Shown one piece after another: positions 14,422 through 46,051 of a stretch of DNA of 64,000 bases. The notes beneath the pieces are model-generated. The model worked only from the letters and a program-made list of their open reading frames with translations, searched no databases and was not told the origin of the DNA. The translations under genes and the position numbers were made by a program. Source of the DNA: a bacterium (GTDB taxonomy: Bacteria > AUK180); NCBI GenBank assembly GCA_023144005.1, contig JAGLGN010000030.1:23813-87812 (forward strand), given 5' to 3'. Each line of letters begins with the position of its first letter. Positions within the stretch are counted from its first letter, which is position 1.

Positions 14422-16331
14422 AAGGAACACGAAGAAATCTGATATATCTCATTTTCATAATTGTCATGTTCGCGGTCTTCATCGTATTTTCTCTCAGAAC
14501 CTTATCTGAGCTGCAGGGAGAGAGCCGGATCACTACCGTTTACATAGTATTTCAGCTTCTAGCCCTCTTCGTTTTCATCTTCTCATTTCTATTTGTTGCT
14601 CTGAAGGGCGCATTGTACTTTTTTAATGAAAAAAGCAAAAAATCATTTAAAGACAGAAGCATACGCTCTAAATTCTTTGTAATAATCTTAATGGTCGTTA
14701 TATTCATCTCCGTTCCTCAAATAATCTTTAATGTTCTATTCACAAATAATCTTCTGAATCAATGGGGAGGGAAATTGTTTCGAGATACTATCGATGCGGG
14801 TGTTGAGTATTCCAGGTATGTGATATCACAGAAAGTCCGCACGGCTCACATCTGGATCGATAAATTGCCCGAAGAGGATCTCAAAGAGCTGGAGATCAGA
14901 AAGAACGCGGGAGAAGAGGAATTAAAAGCGGGTGAAAGCCTTTACCTTGAGGACCGCATACTCTTCAATAAGGGCGGTATTGTCTGGGAGATCACTCTTT
15001 CTGAGGAGGAGAAGAATTTCTTATACAATGTAAATGAAACGCATAACCGATTTTTCAAGGATTCACTTTTTCGCAAAAAGGCCTCTCAGATCTTTGCGAT
15101 AATCTCCATCTTCATCATCTCTGTGTTTATTTTTGTGCTTTCCTTCTGGATCGCGGGATTTCTGGGGAAGGACCTTATTCTGCCCATTGAAAATCTCATG
15201 TTGGGCACGGAAGAGCTCAAAAGGGGAAATTACCGTTTCAAGATACAGAAAACTTCTGAAGACGAGCTTGGGGTCTTGATAGATAATTTCAATAAGATGT
15301 CATCAATAATTCAAACCGCGAGGGACGAGCAGAGCAAGTTAAATGAAAATCTGCAGACGGAGCGGGATTTCCAGAATGCCATCCTTACTTCTGTCACAAC
15401 CGGTATCGGCATTATTTCCGCTAAAGGGGACATGATCTTCAAGAATCCTTCTTTGGAAGCAATTCTGCAGGAATTGGAATCGCCGGAAGAACTTGAGAAG
15501 TCCATTTCCAAGATGCTTTCCGACAAGGATGAAACCCTGCTCAAGAAACGGATAAGGATAGGAGATATTTTTCTTTCGATCAATATCTTGAATTTTCGAT
15601 CTGGCAAGTCGGAGAAACTGCTTATAGTCGATGATTTCACCGAGATACTCAATCTTCGCCGCGCCGAGATATGGCAGGCAATGGCGAGGAAATTAATGCA
15701 TGAACTGAAGAACCCGCTCACTCCAATATCGCTGGCCATTGACCGTTTGCGCCGAAAGCGCTCACAGGATCCGGATGGTTTTGAGAAGATCTTTGACGAG
15801 AATACCGCTATTATCAAGGAAGAAATAGACAGATTATCGAAACTGCTGAAACACTTCAATGATTTCGCGAAACTTCCCGCGCCTCATCTCAAGAAAATGT
15901 CGCTTGACAAATTATTGGGAGATCTTATTAAACTCTATTCGGATAAGGAAGACAAAAATGTCTCTATTCACCTCCGTACAGAGGCTGATGATGCGATGAT
16001 AGAAGGTGATCAGATCCTTCTTAAGCAGCTTTTTGTGAATCTGCTCAATAATTCCCTTGATTCCTTTAAGGGGGGAAAGGGGGCGATCAATATTATCATC
16101 AAGGGCGATGAGAGAACTGTGTATGTTGAATTTTCTGATAATGGCATAGGAATAGCTAAAAAAGACCTTGATAAGATCTGGGATATATATTTTTCAGGAA
16201 AAAAATCGGGCACCGGCCTTGGCTTAACAATGGTGCAAAGGATCATTGAAGATCATAGCGGCAGGATCAGTGTAAGATCATCGCTGAAGACCGGCACCGT
16301 ATTCGATATCGAATTCAGGAGAAGGCAGTGA
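14418..16331 (+). CDS. NtrY-like sensor histidine kinase (TM, HAMP, PAS-like, HisKA, HATPase)
   Basis: 'LMHELKNPLTPISLAIDRLRRK', 'LLNNSLDSF', 'DNGIGIAKKDLDKIWDIYFSGKKSGTGLGL'. Confidence 0.9.
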   Translation: MKGTRRNLIYLIFIIVMFAVFIVFSLRTLSELQGESRITTVYIVFQLLALFVFIFSFLFVALKGALYFFNEKSKKSFKDRSIRSKFFVIILMVVIFISVPQIIFNVLFTNNLLNQWGGKLFRDTIDAGVEYSRYVISQKVRTAHIWIDKLPEEDLKELEIRKNAGEEELKAGESLYLEDRILFNKGGIVWEITLSEEEKNFLYNVNETHNRFFKDSLFRKKASQIFAIISIFIISVFIFVLSFWIAGFLGKDLILPIENLMLGTEELKRGNYRFKIQKTSEDELGVLIDNFNKMSSIIQTARDEQSKLNENLQTERDFQNAILTSVTTGIGIISAKGDMIFKNPSLEAILQELESPEELEKSISKMLSDKDETLLKKRIRIGDIFLSINILNFRSGKSEKLLIVDDFTEILNLRRAEIWQAMARKLMHELKNPLTPISLAIDRLRRKRSQDPDGFEKIFDENTAIIKEEIDRLSKLLKHFNDFAKLPAPHLKKMSLDKLLGDLIKLYSDKEDKNVSIHLRTEADDAMIEGDQILLKQLFVNLLNNSLDSFKGGKGAINIIIKGDERTVYVEFSDNGIGIAKKDLDKIWDIYFSGKKSGTGLGLTMVQRIIEDHSGRISVRSSLKTGTVFDIEFRRRQ

Positions 16332-16981
16332 AATGCGCCCTTTGCGGCAAGAAAATGAAGATAAGATCTCCGTTTTGCCCTTCATGCAGCTCAAGATTGC
16401 TGCGTTCTCCGATATCCGCCTGTGAAAAATGTCATTGCGCGCTTTCTGGAAGAAGGAGGCTGTGTGAACAATGCAGGGGGCGGAAGAATTACTTCGACGG
16501 ATTTTACAATCTCGGTTATTACGCCAAGGGAATGGGAGAAATAATCAGGAAGGTAAAATTCAGAGAGGAGCGAAAACTTGCTTTGGGATTGGGACGAATG
16601 ATGGGGAAAATTCTAAAAAGAGAAAATAGAGAATACACTTATATAATTCCCATACCAATGTCACCGAAACGCTTTCATGAAAGGGGATTCAATCAGGCAT
16701 ATGAGATCGCGAAAGGAGTAGCGAAAACCATGGGAGTGAAGCTCCGGGCAGATCTTCTGGAGAAGCGTGACACGATCGCCTTTGAGAAATTGAATAGAGT
16801 TCAGCGCCGAAGGGAAGTAAAGAAAGCCTTCAAGAGCACAAAGAAGATAGACAAGGCCAAGGGAGCTTCTATCCTGCTTGTGGATGATGTATTTACGACG
16901 GGAACTACGGTAAATGCTGTGGCGCATCTTCTAAAAACGGGTGGCGCCTTAATAGTTGACGCTGGAGTGATCGCAAGATGA
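16328..16981 (+). CDS. ComF family protein (zinc ribbon + phosphoribosyltransferase)
   Basis: Paired Cys motifs CALCGKK/CPSC/CEKCHC/CEQC and PRPP motif 'ILLVDDVFTTGTTVNAVA'. Confidence 0.9.
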   Translation: MKCALCGKKMKIRSPFCPSCSSRLLRSPISACEKCHCALSGRRRLCEQCRGRKNYFDGFYNLGYYAKGMGEIIRKVKFREERKLALGLGRMMGKILKRENREYTYIIPIPMSPKRFHERGFNQAYEIAKGVAKTMGVKLRADLLEKRDTIAFEKLNRVQRRREVKKAFKSTKKIDKAKGASILLVDDVFTTGTTVNAVAHLLKTGGALIVDAGVIAR

Positions 16982-35401: not shown

Positions 35402-36475
35402 ATGAGCAGAAAACAGACCCTTATCGTCTTATTTGAAATTTTACTTCTTATTCTAGGTATATTCCTCTATTTCGCCGGTGATTCTCTCTTCTCAGGCAAG
35501 TTCTCTGAAGAAGAAGAGATACTGAGAAAGGAGATTCTCGGACTTTCAGAAAAAATAGATGTGTACGAGGACTCTGACAGCAGAGAACTTTTCACCAAGA
35601 ACTTCCTTGAGATCCGTAAAAGTTACAATCAACTCAGTATCACATTTGTTGAAAAGGACTATACAAATGCTCTTTCCGCATACACGGAGTTCGTTCAAGA
35701 ATTAGAATCACTAAAAAGTGAAGTGGACTCCCATTATGCCGACTTGAAGGCAAAAAGAGAGCAGGCGGCTGTGGAGGACGAACTTGCGCAGCTGAAGAAG
35801 GATCAGGAGATGAAAATCGCCCAGGCGGTTTCCAAGGCAAAAAAGGAACAGGCGGTGGCTGTCGCTGCTGCGAAGAAAGAAGCGAAAACTACCGAGACAA
35901 CTCCCTCTGGATCGTATACATATGCTCCTTTGAAGAAGGTATCTTCCGAACCTGCTGCTGCCGAACCGGTTAAGGCCGCTGCCACGCAAGCCGTAAGTGC
36001 GGATAATTCTGGAAAAGTTGACATAAATAACGCATCCATCGCGGAATTAGACAAATTACCGCGCATCGGGCCTGTTAAGGCGAATGCGATTTACGATTAT
36101 CGGATGGCAAACGGCGGTTTTACTTCAATTGAGGACATCGTTAGTGTAAGCGGTATCGGAGAGAAGACATATGCCTTATTGAAACCCCTGATATACTGCG
36201 GCAAATTTGGAACGGCTTCTTCCCCCGCGGTAAGCACCAGTTCTCCCGCGGCATCTCAAACATCCGCCGCGGACAAGGTCAATATAAACACCGCGGATCA
36301 GACGCAATTAGAGACATTACCCCGAATCGGCCCCGCGACCGCCCGTAATATCATTAATTACCGTGATGAGAACGGGCCCTTTAAAACATATGAGGATATC
36401 ATGAATGTTCCCCGGATAGGCGAGAAGACCTTGGCGAACATTAAACCATTTATAAAATTAGGAGATGGCGAATGA
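35402..36475 (+). CDS. Membrane-anchored protein with two ComEA-like helix-hairpin-helix modules
   Basis: N-terminal TM, coiled-coil/Ala-Lys linker, 'VDINNASIAELDKLPRIGPVKANAIYDYR' and 'VNINTADQTQLETLPRIGPATARNIINYRDENGPF'. Confidence 0.85.
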   Translation: MSRKQTLIVLFEILLLILGIFLYFAGDSLFSGKFSEEEEILRKEILGLSEKIDVYEDSDSRELFTKNFLEIRKSYNQLSITFVEKDYTNALSAYTEFVQELESLKSEVDSHYADLKAKREQAAVEDELAQLKKDQEMKIAQAVSKAKKEQAVAVAAAKKEAKTTETTPSGSYTYAPLKKVSSEPAAAEPVKAAATQAVSADNSGKVDINNASIAELDKLPRIGPVKANAIYDYRMANGGFTSIEDIVSVSGIGEKTYALLKPLIYCGKFGTASSPAVSTSSPAASQTSAADKVNINTADQTQLETLPRIGPATARNIINYRDENGPFKTYEDIMNVPRIGEKTLANIKPFIKLGDGE

Positions 36476-38442
36476 ACATAAGCAACCTGATCGAGAAACT
36501 CCCTGAAAAAGAACAGAAGTATTTCATCTATCTTATCAAAGACCTCAAGGATGAAGAAAAGGAAAGATTTATCAGGGAAGTGTATGAACTTTCGGAAGTT
36601 GAACAGGATCTTATCCTGAAGATGCTTCTGAGGATGTCACCGGAACAGATCACGGGCATTATTTATAATTCCAATGATGAGGGGCCTTTGATGATACTTG
36701 GAGACGAGATATCGATGAAGCGTACCCTTCTGGCCAATAGAATAGCGTATCATCTGATCACCCGCAATATCAAGGTGGATGAGGTTCTGGGGTTATGCTT
36801 TTCGAATCTAAATGCCGGAAGTATAATCGACATGATCGGTAATTCTCTGCCGGAAAAGATGATCTTCCGTATGGATATCGATACTTTCAATTCGATCTCA
36901 TTGCAGATACTGAGAGATTATGTTCTGGGAAGCCTGAATATCGAGAAGATCGGTTATAAAACATCTCCGAAATTCAGGGTATTAGTGGCAAGAGAGCAAT
37001 TACTTCTTTTGAAAAGGGCTTTGGAGGAATCGAAGATACCTTCCTCAGAGCTTGGCTTCTCACAGCTTGTCGGCAGCATCATAGGATTGAAAAGAGAATT
37101 GGTCTCGCCCGAAGACGCGGTGAAGCAGGCAAAGGATGACGAGGCGGTAAAGGTGGCGAAGGTATATACGATTTATCAGGACCTTCTGATAAAGAACAAT
37201 ACCTGTGATATCAATGATCTTGTTCGGCTTACGATCCAATTGTTCAATACATCTTCAGAGGTTCTCGAATACTACAGAGGCAAATACAAGATGATCTTTA
37301 TTGACGACTATCATTATTCGAGTTTTGCCCAATACCAGATGATCAAGGTACTGACCGAGGGCAAGAAGAACCTGACCTTTACATCAGGGCATAAGATAAA
37401 CACATATAAATGGTCCGCGAACGCGGTAAATTATTCCAATGAATTTGTAAAAGATTTTAAAGGCAAAACGGTTGAATATGATAGAAGCGCGATAGATGTT
37501 GAGGAGATCCTCAAGCGTGAGATCTTTATTGAGACCGGCGAGAGCGTGGAAGAGATAGAGCCTGCCGAGACAGCTGACTTCAACGAATATATTGAAGGAG
37601 AGGCCCTGATCAGGCTTGAAGAGGAAGATGAGGTAAATGAATCTTCACTTGTTATCAACTCCATCATCAGAAAAACTCAGGAAGGCACTCCTTTCGGTAA
37701 GATCGCTATCGTGGTGAGGACTAACCGCCAGATCGAAGTCCTGAAGAAAGTATTGAAAGGCGCGAATATACCTTTCTTTATTACAGGAGATAGATTGCTT
37801 GCCCGTGATGAGATCAATGATGTTATGTCATTGCTGAAAACAGTTTATTATGTTTCGGAGATGAATAGCAAGAAAAAACTTACTCCTGATGAACTGCATG
37901 ACCTGAACGAATCGCTTAAAGCCATTTTCCTGAACATTATTCCGCTTCAATTGGAATTCAACACATATGTTCAATTAGAGAAAATGGCATTAGAGGCGCA
38001 AACGGATATATATTCAATACTACTGGATGACGAGAAGGAGACCGACAGATTCAAGACACGGTTCCCGCTTAAGGACAGAGAGATCGTAGGGTTTTTCAAA
38101 GACCTTATTCAGACGGTATCCAAAGAGATCGAAGAGTTCGATGTCGCCATTTTGATAGAGCTTCTCACCAATGAGACCAAATTCCTTGATTCTCTGGTCG
38201 CGGAGGGGAAAACCATAGGTAGAATAAAGGCCGAAAACATCAAATACCTCTACCTTTATGCTACTGAGTTCATGAAGAACAATAGCAAAAAAGGCAAGGC
38301 CGGACTGAAGGATTTTGTCATGGATATCGTGGCGAAGAAGAAAAAGCAAGACGAAGAATTGAAATTACATGAAGATGATGTTAAGGTTATCACTCTTAAT
38401 GCCATTGAAGATATTTCTTATCAGATCTATTATCTGATCTAG
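36472..38442 (+). CDS. UvrD/PcrA-like SF1 protein with degenerate motifs, ending at the motif V-like region (probable pseudo-helicase)
   Basis: 'MSPEQITGIIYNSNDEGPLMILGDEISMKRTLLANRIAYHLI' aligns to the UvrD Q/Walker A region without GKT; 'MIFIDDYHYSSFAQYQMI' at motif II; 'AIVVRTNRQIEVLKKVLKGANIPFFITG' at motif IV; ends 'VKVITLNAIEDISYQIYYLI*'. Confidence 0.75.
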   Translation: MNISNLIEKLPEKEQKYFIYLIKDLKDEEKERFIREVYELSEVEQDLILKMLLRMSPEQITGIIYNSNDEGPLMILGDEISMKRTLLANRIAYHLITRNIKVDEVLGLCFSNLNAGSIIDMIGNSLPEKMIFRMDIDTFNSISLQILRDYVLGSLNIEKIGYKTSPKFRVLVAREQLLLLKRALEESKIPSSELGFSQLVGSIIGLKRELVSPEDAVKQAKDDEAVKVAKVYTIYQDLLIKNNTCDINDLVRLTIQLFNTSSEVLEYYRGKYKMIFIDDYHYSSFAQYQMIKVLTEGKKNLTFTSGHKINTYKWSANAVNYSNEFVKDFKGKTVEYDRSAIDVEEILKREIFIETGESVEEIEPAETADFNEYIEGEALIRLEEEDEVNESSLVINSIIRKTQEGTPFGKIAIVVRTNRQIEVLKKVLKGANIPFFITGDRLLARDEINDVMSLLKTVYYVSEMNSKKKLTPDELHDLNESLKAIFLNIIPLQLEFNTYVQLEKMALEAQTDIYSILLDDEKETDRFKTRFPLKDREIVGFFKDLIQTVSKEIEEFDVAILIELLTNETKFLDSLVAEGKTIGRIKAENIKYLYLYATEFMKNNSKKGKAGLKDFVMDIVAKKKKQDEELKLHEDDVKVITLNAIEDISYQIYYLI

Positions 38443-38452
38443 GAGGACGATT

Positions 38453-38680
38453 ATGGGAAAGTATGACAAGTACAAAAAAACGACAGAATCCACTAACCTG
38501 GATAAATACAAGAAGCAGAGCGGGAAGAGTTTTGACGAGATCGATAAAAAACTGGATGCTCAGCCTGAAACTGCTGCTGCGCAGGAGAATAAAGCATCAA
38601 TGGGTGGAAATGTGCTAATAGTTGTTCTCGGTATAGCCACTGCCATTGTCTGGGTTCTGGCGATCGGAAAACTGATCTGA
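38453..38680 (+). CDS. Small protein with C-terminal TM helix
   Basis: 'NVLIVVLGIATAIVWVLAIGKLI'; RBS 'taggagga'. Confidence 0.6.
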   Translation: MGKYDKYKKTTESTNLDKYKKQSGKSFDEIDKKLDAQPETAAAQENKASMGGNVLIVVLGIATAIVWVLAIGKLI

Positions 38681-38687
38681 TAGACCG

Positions 38688-40775
38688 GTGATCATGAAAA
38701 AATTCATTTTATCTTTATTACTTCTTGTATGCATATTTGCGTTTGCCGGCGAGTTGAAGATAGCTTTCATCAATGTTAACCAGGGCGACGCAATGCTTAT
38801 TTCAACTCCTGAAGGCAAGCATTATATTGTCGATGGGGGACAGCCCGCATATTATGACCCCGTAAAGGATATTTATTACTCGAGATTTGACGCGGGAAGA
38901 GATGTGATCCTGCCGTACCTCAAATCGCAGGGCATCGAGAAATTGGATGGTATCCTCGCGACGCATCCTGATGCCGACCATATAGGCGGACTGGTACATT
39001 TGCTTAAGAATATGCCCGTTGATACCGTTTATTACACCGGCAGGCTCCACACCTCCAATATTTTTCAGGTATTTTTAACCCTCTCGAAGGAAAAGGGCGC
39101 CAAATATATCGAAGTGAGGGACGGTGATATATTGAAATGGTCTCCTGCAATGCTGGTAAATGTTCTTGCCCCGACCGATAAAGAGATGGATTATGCCAAG
39201 AATAATAACAATACCTCTATTGTGCTCTTTATCAAATATGGGGAAACTTCGTTCATTCTCTCGGGAGATGCGGAGAAAGAGCAGGAGGACAGAATGTCTT
39301 CGGACTACGGGCAGAATCTGAAGGCGGATCTTCTTAAATTCGGACATCATGGTTCAAAATCTTCTTCGATGACGCGCTATCTGAATCTGATCGCCCCCAA
39401 ATACGGCATAATATCCTGCGGGAAGAACAATAAATTCGGTTTTCCCCATAAGGATGCCCTTGATAGATATTATCATGCAAATTCTGATATGCTCATAGGG
39501 CGTACGGATTATAACGGACATATCGTTGCCGTCAGTGACGGCAGTAAGATCAGTTTTGAAGTCCAGAAGGGAGAGATGTACACCATGGAAGAGGTTTTTG
39601 CACAGGAAAACCTTACTATTCCCGGAAAAGCAGCGAAAACCACTACGGTGCAGAAATCCGGAAATAATGACAGCCCTCTCGTGTCATCCGGTGACCTGGT
39701 GAATATCAATACTGCTTCACAGAGTCAGCTTGAGACATTGCACAGGGTTGGTCCCGCGACCGCCCGCAATATTATAAATTACCGCGATGAGAACGGGCCT
39801 TTCAAAAGGATAGAGGATATTCAAAATGTTCCGAGGATCGGACCAAAGACATTTGAGAATCTGAAAGCCCATATTACCGTCGGTGACAGCGCCGCGGCAC
39901 CCTCCAGCGGAACACAGAAAAAAACCACAACCACTGTTTCTTCAGGGGCTCTGGTGAATATCAATACTGCTTCACAGAGTCAGCTTGAGACATTGCACAG
40001 GGTTGGTCCCGCGACCGCCCGCAATATTATAAATTACCGCAATGAGAACGGGCCTTTCAAAAAGATAGAGGATATTCAAAATGTTCCGAGGATCGGGCCG
40101 AAAACATTTGAGAATCTGAAAGCCAATATCACAGTAGGCGACGGCGCCTCTACCTCTTCTCCTGAAGCGAAGAAGAAAGTTGAAGCAAGTGTTTCATCCG
40201 ATGAGCTTGTGAATATCAATACTGCTTCTCAGAGCCGGCTTGAGACATTACACAGGGTAGGGCCGAAAACCGCACAGAATATCATTAATTATCGTAATGA
40301 GAACGGGCCGTTCAAAAGGATAGAGGATATTCAAAATGTCCCGAGGATCGGACCGAAGACATTTGAGAATCTGATGCCGTATATTACGGTCGGGCAGATC
40401 AGTTCAAAGAAAACCGACACCATTGAAGTGCAGGAAAGCGATGAATCCGAGGATGTCTTGAAAGAGGAAGCGATCGAGAAGGAGAAGTCAGACAACACCG
40501 TGGAAATAGAAGAAGAAAAGGAAGCAGAGCCCATCAAAGAAATTGCAAAGGTCGGCGGCTGTAATGCTGCTCTCACTATAAGTCCTGTGAATATCAACAC
40601 CGCTTCGGAGAAAGAATTGGATGCTATTCCCAGCGTCTGCCGAAATGCCGCTGTTAAGATATTTAATTACAGGCAGAAAAACGGCAAATTCAAGGACCTA
40701 TCCGAAGTACAGAAAGCGGCTTCCATCTCGGATCGTAATTTCAAAAAGATCAAGAAGTACATTATATTGGAGTGA
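38688..40775 (+). CDS. Secreted ComEC-like metallo-beta-lactamase domain fused to four ComEA-like HhH modules
   Basis: Signal peptide; 'HPDADHIGG', 'LKFGHHGSKSSS'; HhH units at 39696, 39951, 40206 and a divergent one at 40584. Confidence 0.9.
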   Translation: MIMKKFILSLLLLVCIFAFAGELKIAFINVNQGDAMLISTPEGKHYIVDGGQPAYYDPVKDIYYSRFDAGRDVILPYLKSQGIEKLDGILATHPDADHIGGLVHLLKNMPVDTVYYTGRLHTSNIFQVFLTLSKEKGAKYIEVRDGDILKWSPAMLVNVLAPTDKEMDYAKNNNNTSIVLFIKYGETSFILSGDAEKEQEDRMSSDYGQNLKADLLKFGHHGSKSSSMTRYLNLIAPKYGIISCGKNNKFGFPHKDALDRYYHANSDMLIGRTDYNGHIVAVSDGSKISFEVQKGEMYTMEEVFAQENLTIPGKAAKTTTVQKSGNNDSPLVSSGDLVNINTASQSQLETLHRVGPATARNIINYRDENGPFKRIEDIQNVPRIGPKTFENLKAHITVGDSAAAPSSGTQKKTTTTVSSGALVNINTASQSQLETLHRVGPATARNIINYRNENGPFKKIEDIQNVPRIGPKTFENLKANITVGDGASTSSPEAKKKVEASVSSDELVNINTASQSRLETLHRVGPKTAQNIINYRNENGPFKRIEDIQNVPRIGPKTFENLMPYITVGQISSKKTDTIEVQESDESEDVLKEEAIEKEKSDNTVEIEEEKEAEPIKEIAKVGGCNAALTISPVNINTASEKELDAIPSVCRNAAVKIFNYRQKNGKFKDLSEVQKAASISDRNFKKIKKYIILE
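39696..40397 (+). repeat. Three in-frame 64-codon HhH repeats, nearly identical at DNA level
   Basis: Units 39696-39887, 39951-40142, 40206-40397, spaced exactly 255 bp. Confidence 0.95.
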
Positions 40776-44318: not shown

Positions 44319-44610
44319 AATAAACATCGGGGGCGAGCAGTTTACATTAGAGACTGATACACCTGAAAAGGTCAAGAATATAGAAAAATTCATACACGAA
44401 AAGATCGAGAACGCTTCTAAGGCGACCGGCCTGAACGACACCAGGAAGAATCTTACCTTTGCATTTCTTTCTGTTGTAGTCGAGATGTGGGACAATGTTA
44501 AAGAGACCTTTGGTGTGGATGATGGTCAGGAAACTGCCAAGTACAGGATAGAAGTACTGAATACGAAGATAAAAGAGAAGATAGAGGAGTTAAATGATGG
44601 ATTGGATTAG
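44305..44610 (+). CDS. zapA: Cell division protein ZapA-like
   Basis: 'IRINIGGEQFTLETDTPEKVKNIEKFIHEKIE'; pheT-zapA neighbourhood. Confidence 0.8.
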   Translation: MQKIRINIGGEQFTLETDTPEKVKNIEKFIHEKIENASKATGLNDTRKNLTFAFLSVVVEMWDNVKETFGVDDGQETAKYRIEVLNTKIKEKIEELNDGLD

Positions 44611-46051
44611 TTCAAAGAAAATAGACACCTTCAGGACCTGCGGATACCGGTATCATGAGATGTATTTGAATAAGAGCAGGGAGAAGGGCAAGTGGGAGCC
44701 GAATTCAAATTATCAGAACCTCGAGAAGAATATTAAGAAGGGATTTGAAGAGAGGTCCAAGATATTTCGCGGCAGGATCCCCGCCCTCGAATACGGCCTG
44801 GATTTCACCCGCCCGGATAAATTTAATGAGGAGGCGATAAAGTATTGTGAAGAGAAATTCAATGAATTCTTCGAGAACAATAAGATCGCGAAGTTCGAAA
44901 ACAGGTCCAAACCTGCATTTTCCCGATATGACTCTAATTACGGCTTCTTTTCACCTGTATCGTTCACAGCGGTTCTAAATGGAGTCAGCACCGCGTTTTA
45001 TGTCAATATGAGCGGTTCCGTAAAGAGTGCCGAAAACCTTCCGTGGGATACCGAGTACATCATCAATTGCTGGATACTTTCCAGAGAGCTGAAAGATATA
45101 AAAGGTATTGCGTTCATTTATCCCTTCTCAGGTGAGATATTTTCGGCTGAGATCACCCGTGAGCATGTTGATGCCGGGTTAAGCGCGGCACAGAAATTTC
45201 TGCACGATCTGTCAGTTTCAGACAAAAAATCCCGGCGCAATCCTTTTTGTGACTGGTGTGATTTTCAAGGGGAATGCCCTGCATGGAAGGATTATCCAAT
45301 GACGATGAAGAAGGAAGACCGTCGCCAGCTGTTTCGGCTCTCATATTCGAAGCTAGATGTATACAAGCGCTGCCCCTTCCTTTTTGAAAAGATATATGTG
45401 AAAAAGATCGCTCAGAAGCCCCGTGATTTCTTTTCTGTGGGAAGCACGATCCATAGCGTAATGGAAGAATTAGAGACAATGGATACTCCGCCGCCGATGG
45501 AGGAGATCAGACAGCTCTATAATAAGATGTGGCTTTCAGCGGGATTCTCAACAAAGGAAGATGAAGATAGGGTTAAAGAGGAGACATGGGCGTGGTTCAA
45601 GGAATATCTGGAGAAAATAGCGTTAAATCCTTTTATAAAGGCAGATAAAATAGAGTTGTATTTTCAATTCCCCATCAAAGGCAAATTGGTAGTGAATGGT
45701 TTTATCGACCGTATCGACAAATTGGAAAACGGTAAATATGAGATAATCGATTACAAGACAGAAACATCAATGCGAACACAAGAAGATGTTGATGAGGATA
45801 TGCAGCTGACCGCATATTTCTGGGCATGTTCCAAGCTGGGATACGATGTTGAGAAAATGAGCCTGCATTTCAACAGATTTCAAAAGAATATATCCACCAC
45901 AAGAACCTCTGAGGATATCGAGAAATTCGAAAATGAAATACTTGAATGGTATTCGAAGATAGAGAATGAGACCGAATACAAACCGTCAGAAAATAAGTAT
46001 TGCGACAATTGCGACTTCAGACCGGAGTGTCCGATCTTCGCTGATAAATAA
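44594..46051 (+). CDS. Tandem PD-(D/E)XK (RecB/Cas4/AddB-type) protein with two 4-Cys modules
   Basis: C-module 'VGSTIHSVMEE', 'GFIDRIDKLENGKYEIIDYKTE', 'MQLTAYFWAC', C + 'YCDNCDFRPECPIF'; N-module 'DTFRTCGYRYHEMYL' + 'CDWCDFQGECPAW'. Confidence 0.85.
   Translation: MMDWISSKKIDTFRTCGYRYHEMYLNKSREKGKWEPNSNYQNLEKNIKKGFEERSKIFRGRIPALEYGLDFTRPDKFNEEAIKYCEEKFNEFFENNKIAKFENRSKPAFSRYDSNYGFFSPVSFTAVLNGVSTAFYVNMSGSVKSAENLPWDTEYIINCWILSRELKDIKGIAFIYPFSGEIFSAEITREHVDAGLSAAQKFLHDLSVSDKKSRRNPFCDWCDFQGECPAWKDYPMTMKKEDRRQLFRLSYSKLDVYKRCPFLFEKIYVKKIAQKPRDFFSVGSTIHSVMEELETMDTPPPMEEIRQLYNKMWLSAGFSTKEDEDRVKEETWAWFKEYLEKIALNPFIKADKIELYFQFPIKGKLVVNGFIDRIDKLENGKYEIIDYKTETSMRTQEDVDEDMQLTAYFWACSKLGYDVEKMSLHFNRFQKNISTTRTSEDIEKFENEILEWYSKIENETEYKPSENKYCDNCDFRPECPIFADK

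Follow-up and report, generated by a model that had tools for sequence, protein, structure and literature searches.

A conserved PcrA/UvrD-like pseudo-helicase with degenerate ATPase motifs, encoded beside ComEA-like and ComEC-type genes in the AUK180 phylum

The most familiar inactivated SF1 helicases are domains within AddB and RecC, in which loss of the motor gave rise to a DNA reader. To our knowledge, no pseudo-helicase of the UvrD family is a component of the Com system, and we know of no report of natural transformation in the uncultured AUK180 phylum. In AddB and RecC, it is an inactivated helicase domain, its SF1 core dead, that reads Chi (PMC4824097), and the ComEC of Streptococcus pneumoniae, whose metallo-beta-lactamase (MBL) domain is substituted, works alongside a separate nuclease (PMC8579336). 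AUK180 names a GTDB phylum termed Ca. Uvuciota (PMC11382960), and one carrier of the gene described here is isolate AUK180; the window is assigned to this phylum because its genome shares a family with that isolate.

This gene lies at 36472-38442 (forward strand, as are its motifs and the genes of its operon and string given below) of the window, by which we mean the whole 64,000-nucleotide stretch of DNA analysed, and it encodes a PcrA-like SF1A protein of 656 amino acids without working ATPase motifs, referred to as the pseudo-helicase. A preliminary description, made from the letters alone, had aligned the ORF with UvrD/PcrA and reported an intact frame of 656 codons. Both statements held: there are zero internal stops at these exact coordinates, and the protein matches the Pfam families UvrD-helicase (1.5e-31; 110.5 bits, cut-off 23) and UvrD_C (1.4e-14; 54.7 bits, cut-off 25.6), both of which are matched by 5/5 pseudo-helicase orthologues. 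A PcrA profile spans residues 68-656 (2.6e-52), and the sequence of a PcrA crystal structure gives 8.1e-40. Judged from these matches, the pseudo-helicase is a genuine homologue of the UvrD/PcrA family, well beyond chance. Its score against the PcrA equivalog TIGR01073, 178.1 bits for a threshold of 911.2, does not discriminate here, because the class's own intact PcrA also falls below that cut-off, with just 577 bits.

The orthologues were compared residue by residue with 29 canonical PcrA/UvrD proteins. All of these references (29/29) are intact at each core position of the ATP site, whereas the ATP-site residues are lost in every orthologue that covers those positions. Walker A reads DEISMKR (residues 78-84, 36703-36723), the canonical G32/G34/G36-K37-T38 having become D/I-V/M-S-K-R. 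Thus, the earlier remark that GKT is lacking stands for the glycines and the Thr, but not for the Lys, which survives as K83 in 4/4 copies; the Walker B Asp, D278, survives in 5/5. The other substitutions read by eye were recovered in the alignment, namely, TFHS to TFNS in motif Ib, where His becomes Asn (residues 138-141, 36883-36894); DEYQDT to DDYHYS in Walker B (residues 278-283, 37303-37320), where D223 is kept, E224 becomes Asp or Ala, D227 (motif II) becomes Tyr, and the Y-H-Y is invariant across 5/5 orthologues; and an altered GDxxQSIYxWRGA in motif III (residues 305-317, 37384-37422), where Q254 becomes Ile or Leu and R260 becomes Ser, His or Asn, while the ssDNA-stacking Tyr and Trp are kept. 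Neither the Walker A GxGxGKT nor the Walker B DE that define the enzyme is therefore found in the pseudo-helicase.

At the C-terminus, motifs V and VI had both been described as missing, which is correct for motif VI only. Motif V is present in degenerate form (TLNAIEDISYQIYYLI), its Gly replaced, and the stop codon comes directly after it, so that what is truly missing is motif VI and the C-terminal tail. The motif V remnant and the conserved C-terminus (ITLNAIEDISYQIYYLI) occupy 38389-38439, and the protein terminates upstream of the position of motif VI, leaving it devoid of the arginine finger. At the opposite end, ahead of the Q motif, there is a predicted helical extension (residues 1-58, 36472-36645) that canonical PcrA does not have and that the preliminary description had overlooked; it is about 55 residues long and is conserved within the family. 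Since the P-loop and the arginine finger are gone, ATP turnover is not expected, and the sequence makes it very probable that the pseudo-helicase does not hydrolyse ATP. The equivalents of PcrA F64, N66 and Y257 are retained (Tyr or Phe at the latter), as is that of W259 in all same-family copies; in PcrA, the W259A mutation lowers ssDNA binding by about 200-fold (PMC10709652). These kept aromatic residues suggest a working ssDNA groove, and we consider it fairly probable that ssDNA binding has been retained.

Structure prediction points in the same direction as the sequence profiles. An AlphaFold model obtained from 21 sequences, including canonical PcrAs, had a mean pLDDT of 79.5, and its best Foldseek match was PcrA (2pjr, E 8e-23) at a TM of about 0.4, a low value that is perhaps due to domain orientation. 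The model built from the family's own five sequences was poor (mean pLDDT 62.3), with domain 1A unconfident, and PcrA remained its top Foldseek match (1.5e-14); this match is only partly independent, because Foldseek uses sequence besides structure. Thus, the SF1 assignment made at the outset agrees with the PcrA/UvrD hits returned by both sequence profiles and Foldseek, though the family-only model is of low confidence.

Motif loss and truncation, taken alone, favoured a decaying pseudogene, against which the preliminary description had argued for a maintained gene. To evaluate this, we sampled five genomes of one AUK180 family and two genomes of a second family. Full-length orthologues sharing the lost residues occur in 5/5 same-family genomes, and in these five we found zero orthologues with intact motifs or with the length of a complete helicase. 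Identities to the four same-family relatives are 100, 72, 68 and 65%, and all these proteins are of equal length, free of internal stops and end in YYLI. The copy found in the second family, whose N-terminus is cut by a contig edge, shares 39% identity, carries DDYHYA and terminates at the equivalent point of motif V; no copy was found in the other second-family genome, which is about 80% complete. With a same-genus genome, a simple Nei-Gojobori estimate gives a dN/dS of 0.022 (36 synonymous and 3 non-synonymous changes; Fisher p 3.6e-21), which speaks against a recent pseudogene and is slightly lower than that of active PcrA (0.028) and lower than that of every measured neighbour. Between genera, the pseudo-helicase is 63-72% identical, versus 52-58% for the intact PcrA paralogue that these genomes carry; the neighbours PheS (60-63%) and PheT (48-56%) also fall below it. 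Together, the dN/dS and an identity above that of the paralogue argue for strong purifying selection, and being conserved more tightly than the working PcrA of the same cells, the pseudo-helicase has probably taken on a new role in DNA handling that needs no motor. Decay into a pseudogene, or an error of assembly, can be practically dismissed, given this dN/dS and a frame that is intact in six genomes (five of the same family and one of the other); the conserved C-terminus, ribosome sites and synteny also count against it.

In the phylogenetic tree, the five pseudo-helicases form a single clade (SH-aLRT 100), and the AU test does not reject a clade in which they join the PcrA copies belonging to the class (p-AU 0.909). 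A lineage-specific duplication is thus possible, long branches preventing a firmer claim. A PcrA-family paralogue accompanies the pseudo-helicase in every genome that carries the latter, the two genes being unlinked. As part of our best explanation, the pseudo-helicase would be a catalytically dead PcrA/UvrD paralogue that was fixed before the two families of the class split. In an alignment-based search of 290 genomes, members of the family scored at least 883 bits and all others at most 215 bits, the score of the best non-member; hence no comparable relative was found beyond the phylum among these genomes, which gave canonical-type scores only. When 84,980 species genomes were scanned with two peptide patterns only, the same members and no further relative were retrieved; the other matches were ordinary PcrAs, sharing about 30% or less along extended stretches. 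A phage origin was considered and set aside, as a single-sequence scan of IMG/VR gave no relative. In the second family, the sole PcrA-type gene found (L100:1589-3766, L101:366-2546) has an intact Walker A, eroded motifs Ia, Ib, III and V, and a very basic pI of 9.4-9.7; motif VI is eroded too in G005. A fragment of the latter genome (C36), taken at first for a missing N-terminus, belongs to an AddA-like gene.

Directly upstream of the pseudo-helicase, at 35402-36475, is the gene of a ComEA-like protein with one N-terminal membrane segment, a coiled linker and two helix-hairpin-helix (HhH) domains (Pfam HHH_3, 3.2e-45; NCBIfam comE, 4.2e-43). Its stop overlaps the pseudo-helicase start as ATGA in the window, G002 and G003, a feature absent from the preliminary description, and in G004 the two genes are one base apart. 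Downstream, the ribosome-binding site and adjoining gene that had been reported are there: an AGGAGG follows the pseudo-helicase stop directly and precedes an ORF of 75 amino acids (38453-38680), conserved beside the pseudo-helicase and encoding a C-terminal membrane segment. This small protein bears a repeated DKYKK motif, and a Pfam search assigned it to no family. Next comes a gene (38688-40775) for a secreted protein in which a ComEC-type MBL domain (HPDADH) is fused to four HhH domains; both its secretion signal and the ComEA-like membrane segment were called from sequence. The same string, 6 kb downstream of the pseudo-helicase, includes a class-conserved gene (44594-46051) for a tandem PD-(D/E)XK protein, whose first domain is degenerate and whose second, intact domain has a Cys cluster and is Cas4/AddB-like. 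The order ComEA-like HhH, pseudo-helicase, 75-amino-acid protein, MBL-HhH, pheS, pheT, zapA and PD-(D/E)XK holds in all same-family genomes, the string having been pieced from two contigs each in G001 and G004, and RecJ comes next in two genomes. In the second family, the pseudo-helicase does not adjoin HhH/MBL genes downstream, and MBL-HhH lies beside pheS without the pseudo-helicase, so that the link to uptake is observed in just one family.

Other Com-like genes accompany the pseudo-helicase. The MBL-HhH protein matches the MBL region and profile of ComEC at 1e-44, with HPDADH present, and in 5/5 genomes read ComEC is without the MBL metal motif H-x-[DH]-x-D-H. The ComEC genes (L156:3391-6291, which is G000 C6; L124, L125, L127 and L128) encode a C-terminal MBL-like region without the motif. 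ComEC, DprA and ComF-like genes are present in the pseudo-helicase genomes; a ComF-like phosphoribosyltransferase ORF in the window (16328-16981) scores 84 bits, under the curated cut-off.

Building on the homology, motif loss, conservation, purifying selection and operon computed here, we propose, with a probability of roughly 40%, that the pseudo-helicase is a passive ssDNA-binding scaffold, made together with the membrane HhH receptor and the MBL-HhH protein, that holds cytoplasmic ssDNA for uptake or nuclease processing. Such a protein would have kept its 1A/1B/2B layout and the residues that stack on bases in the ssDNA groove, while losing those responsible for binding and hydrolysing ATP. 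That it is translationally coupled to a membrane DNA receptor suggests that it is a stoichiometric partner at the membrane, and co-production with this anchored receptor and with the secreted ComEC-type protein would place it to receive or hold ssDNA at the cytoplasmic side. However, the acidic pI of the pseudo-helicase (5.05) disfavours strong DNA binding, the equivalent of PcrA F626 falls within the lost region, the second family has lost the linkage to the HhH/MBL genes, and a good AlphaFold model requires canonical PcrAs in the alignment (79.5 versus 62.3). A role in DNA uptake, suggested by gene context, is tentative, and we hold it to be somewhat doubtful. The fuller scenario, in which a PcrA motor turned into a motorless ssDNA receiver of a membrane uptake complex whose dead ComEC nuclease domain is replaced from the same operon, seems unlikely.

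The pseudo-helicase could instead be a regulatory partner of active PcrA, that is, a dead subunit that tunes unwinding either by forming a heterodimer with PcrA or by competing for the substrates and partners of PcrA. The paralogue in each genome, the joint clade left standing by the AU test, the solved dimers of the related UvrD1 (9dci) and the conservation of the 2B region and C-terminus would all fit, but the C-terminal hub of PcrA is missing from the pseudo-helicase, which is linked to the HhH/MBL genes and not to PcrA; we regard this option as rather unlikely. Less probable still is a split AddB-like subunit, with the pseudo-helicase as inactivated helicase half and the PD-(D/E)XK protein as nuclease half. 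The ssDNA-reading inactivated SF1 domains of AddB and RecC (PMC4824097) offer a precedent, and the PD-(D/E)XK protein, with one Cas4/AddB-like active and one degenerate domain, belongs to the same conserved string, followed by RecJ in two genomes. Against it, several genes intervene, the two genes are on different contigs in the second family, the closest sequence is PcrA and not AddB, and an AddA-like/AddB-like pair is encoded separately in the genome.

That K83 (4/4) and D278 (5/5) persist might indicate a nucleotide switch without hydrolysis, or an unusual active enzyme, which we deem highly improbable because the P-loop glycines, the Mg-binding Thr, the Walker B Glu, the motif III Gln and all of motif VI are gone. 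Identity as an AddB orthologue is ruled out by the separate AddB-like gene, and Gabija or another defence role was rejected, since it had profile matches only and partner genes were not found nearby.

When compared with PcrA/UvrD/Rep, the pseudo-helicase shares the domain order 1A-1B-2A-2B (residues 68-656), the PcrA fold match and the ssDNA-stacking aromatics, but differs in being without a functional Walker A, the catalytic Glu, motif VI and the C-terminal tail, in its degenerate motifs III and V, and in its added helical N-terminus. It would allow one to ask which parts of an SF1 helicase merit keeping without ATP. Its resemblance to GajB of Gabija (UvrD-like profile, 4.4e-29) reflects shared SF1A ancestry, as no GajA is among its neighbours. 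With the Com machinery (ComEA, ComEC, ComFA) it shares ComEA-like and ComEC-MBL-like neighbours, although a UvrD-family pseudo-helicase is not among the components known to us and membership is judged from gene context; if the link to uptake is true, it would be a new kind of part in natural transformation. Finally, it resembles the AddB N-terminal domain and RecC in its SF1 topology, in the loss of ATPase motifs and in an ssDNA site that may remain. Unlike them, it is free-standing and PcrA-derived, with no fused C-terminal nuclease or nuclease-like domain, and it coexists with separate AddA-like and AddB-like genes; for these reasons we do not count it as a member of that group, and its inactivation appears to have been independent. 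A free-standing, PcrA-derived protein under more constraint than the active motor would represent a second, apparently independent, conversion from motor to scaffold.
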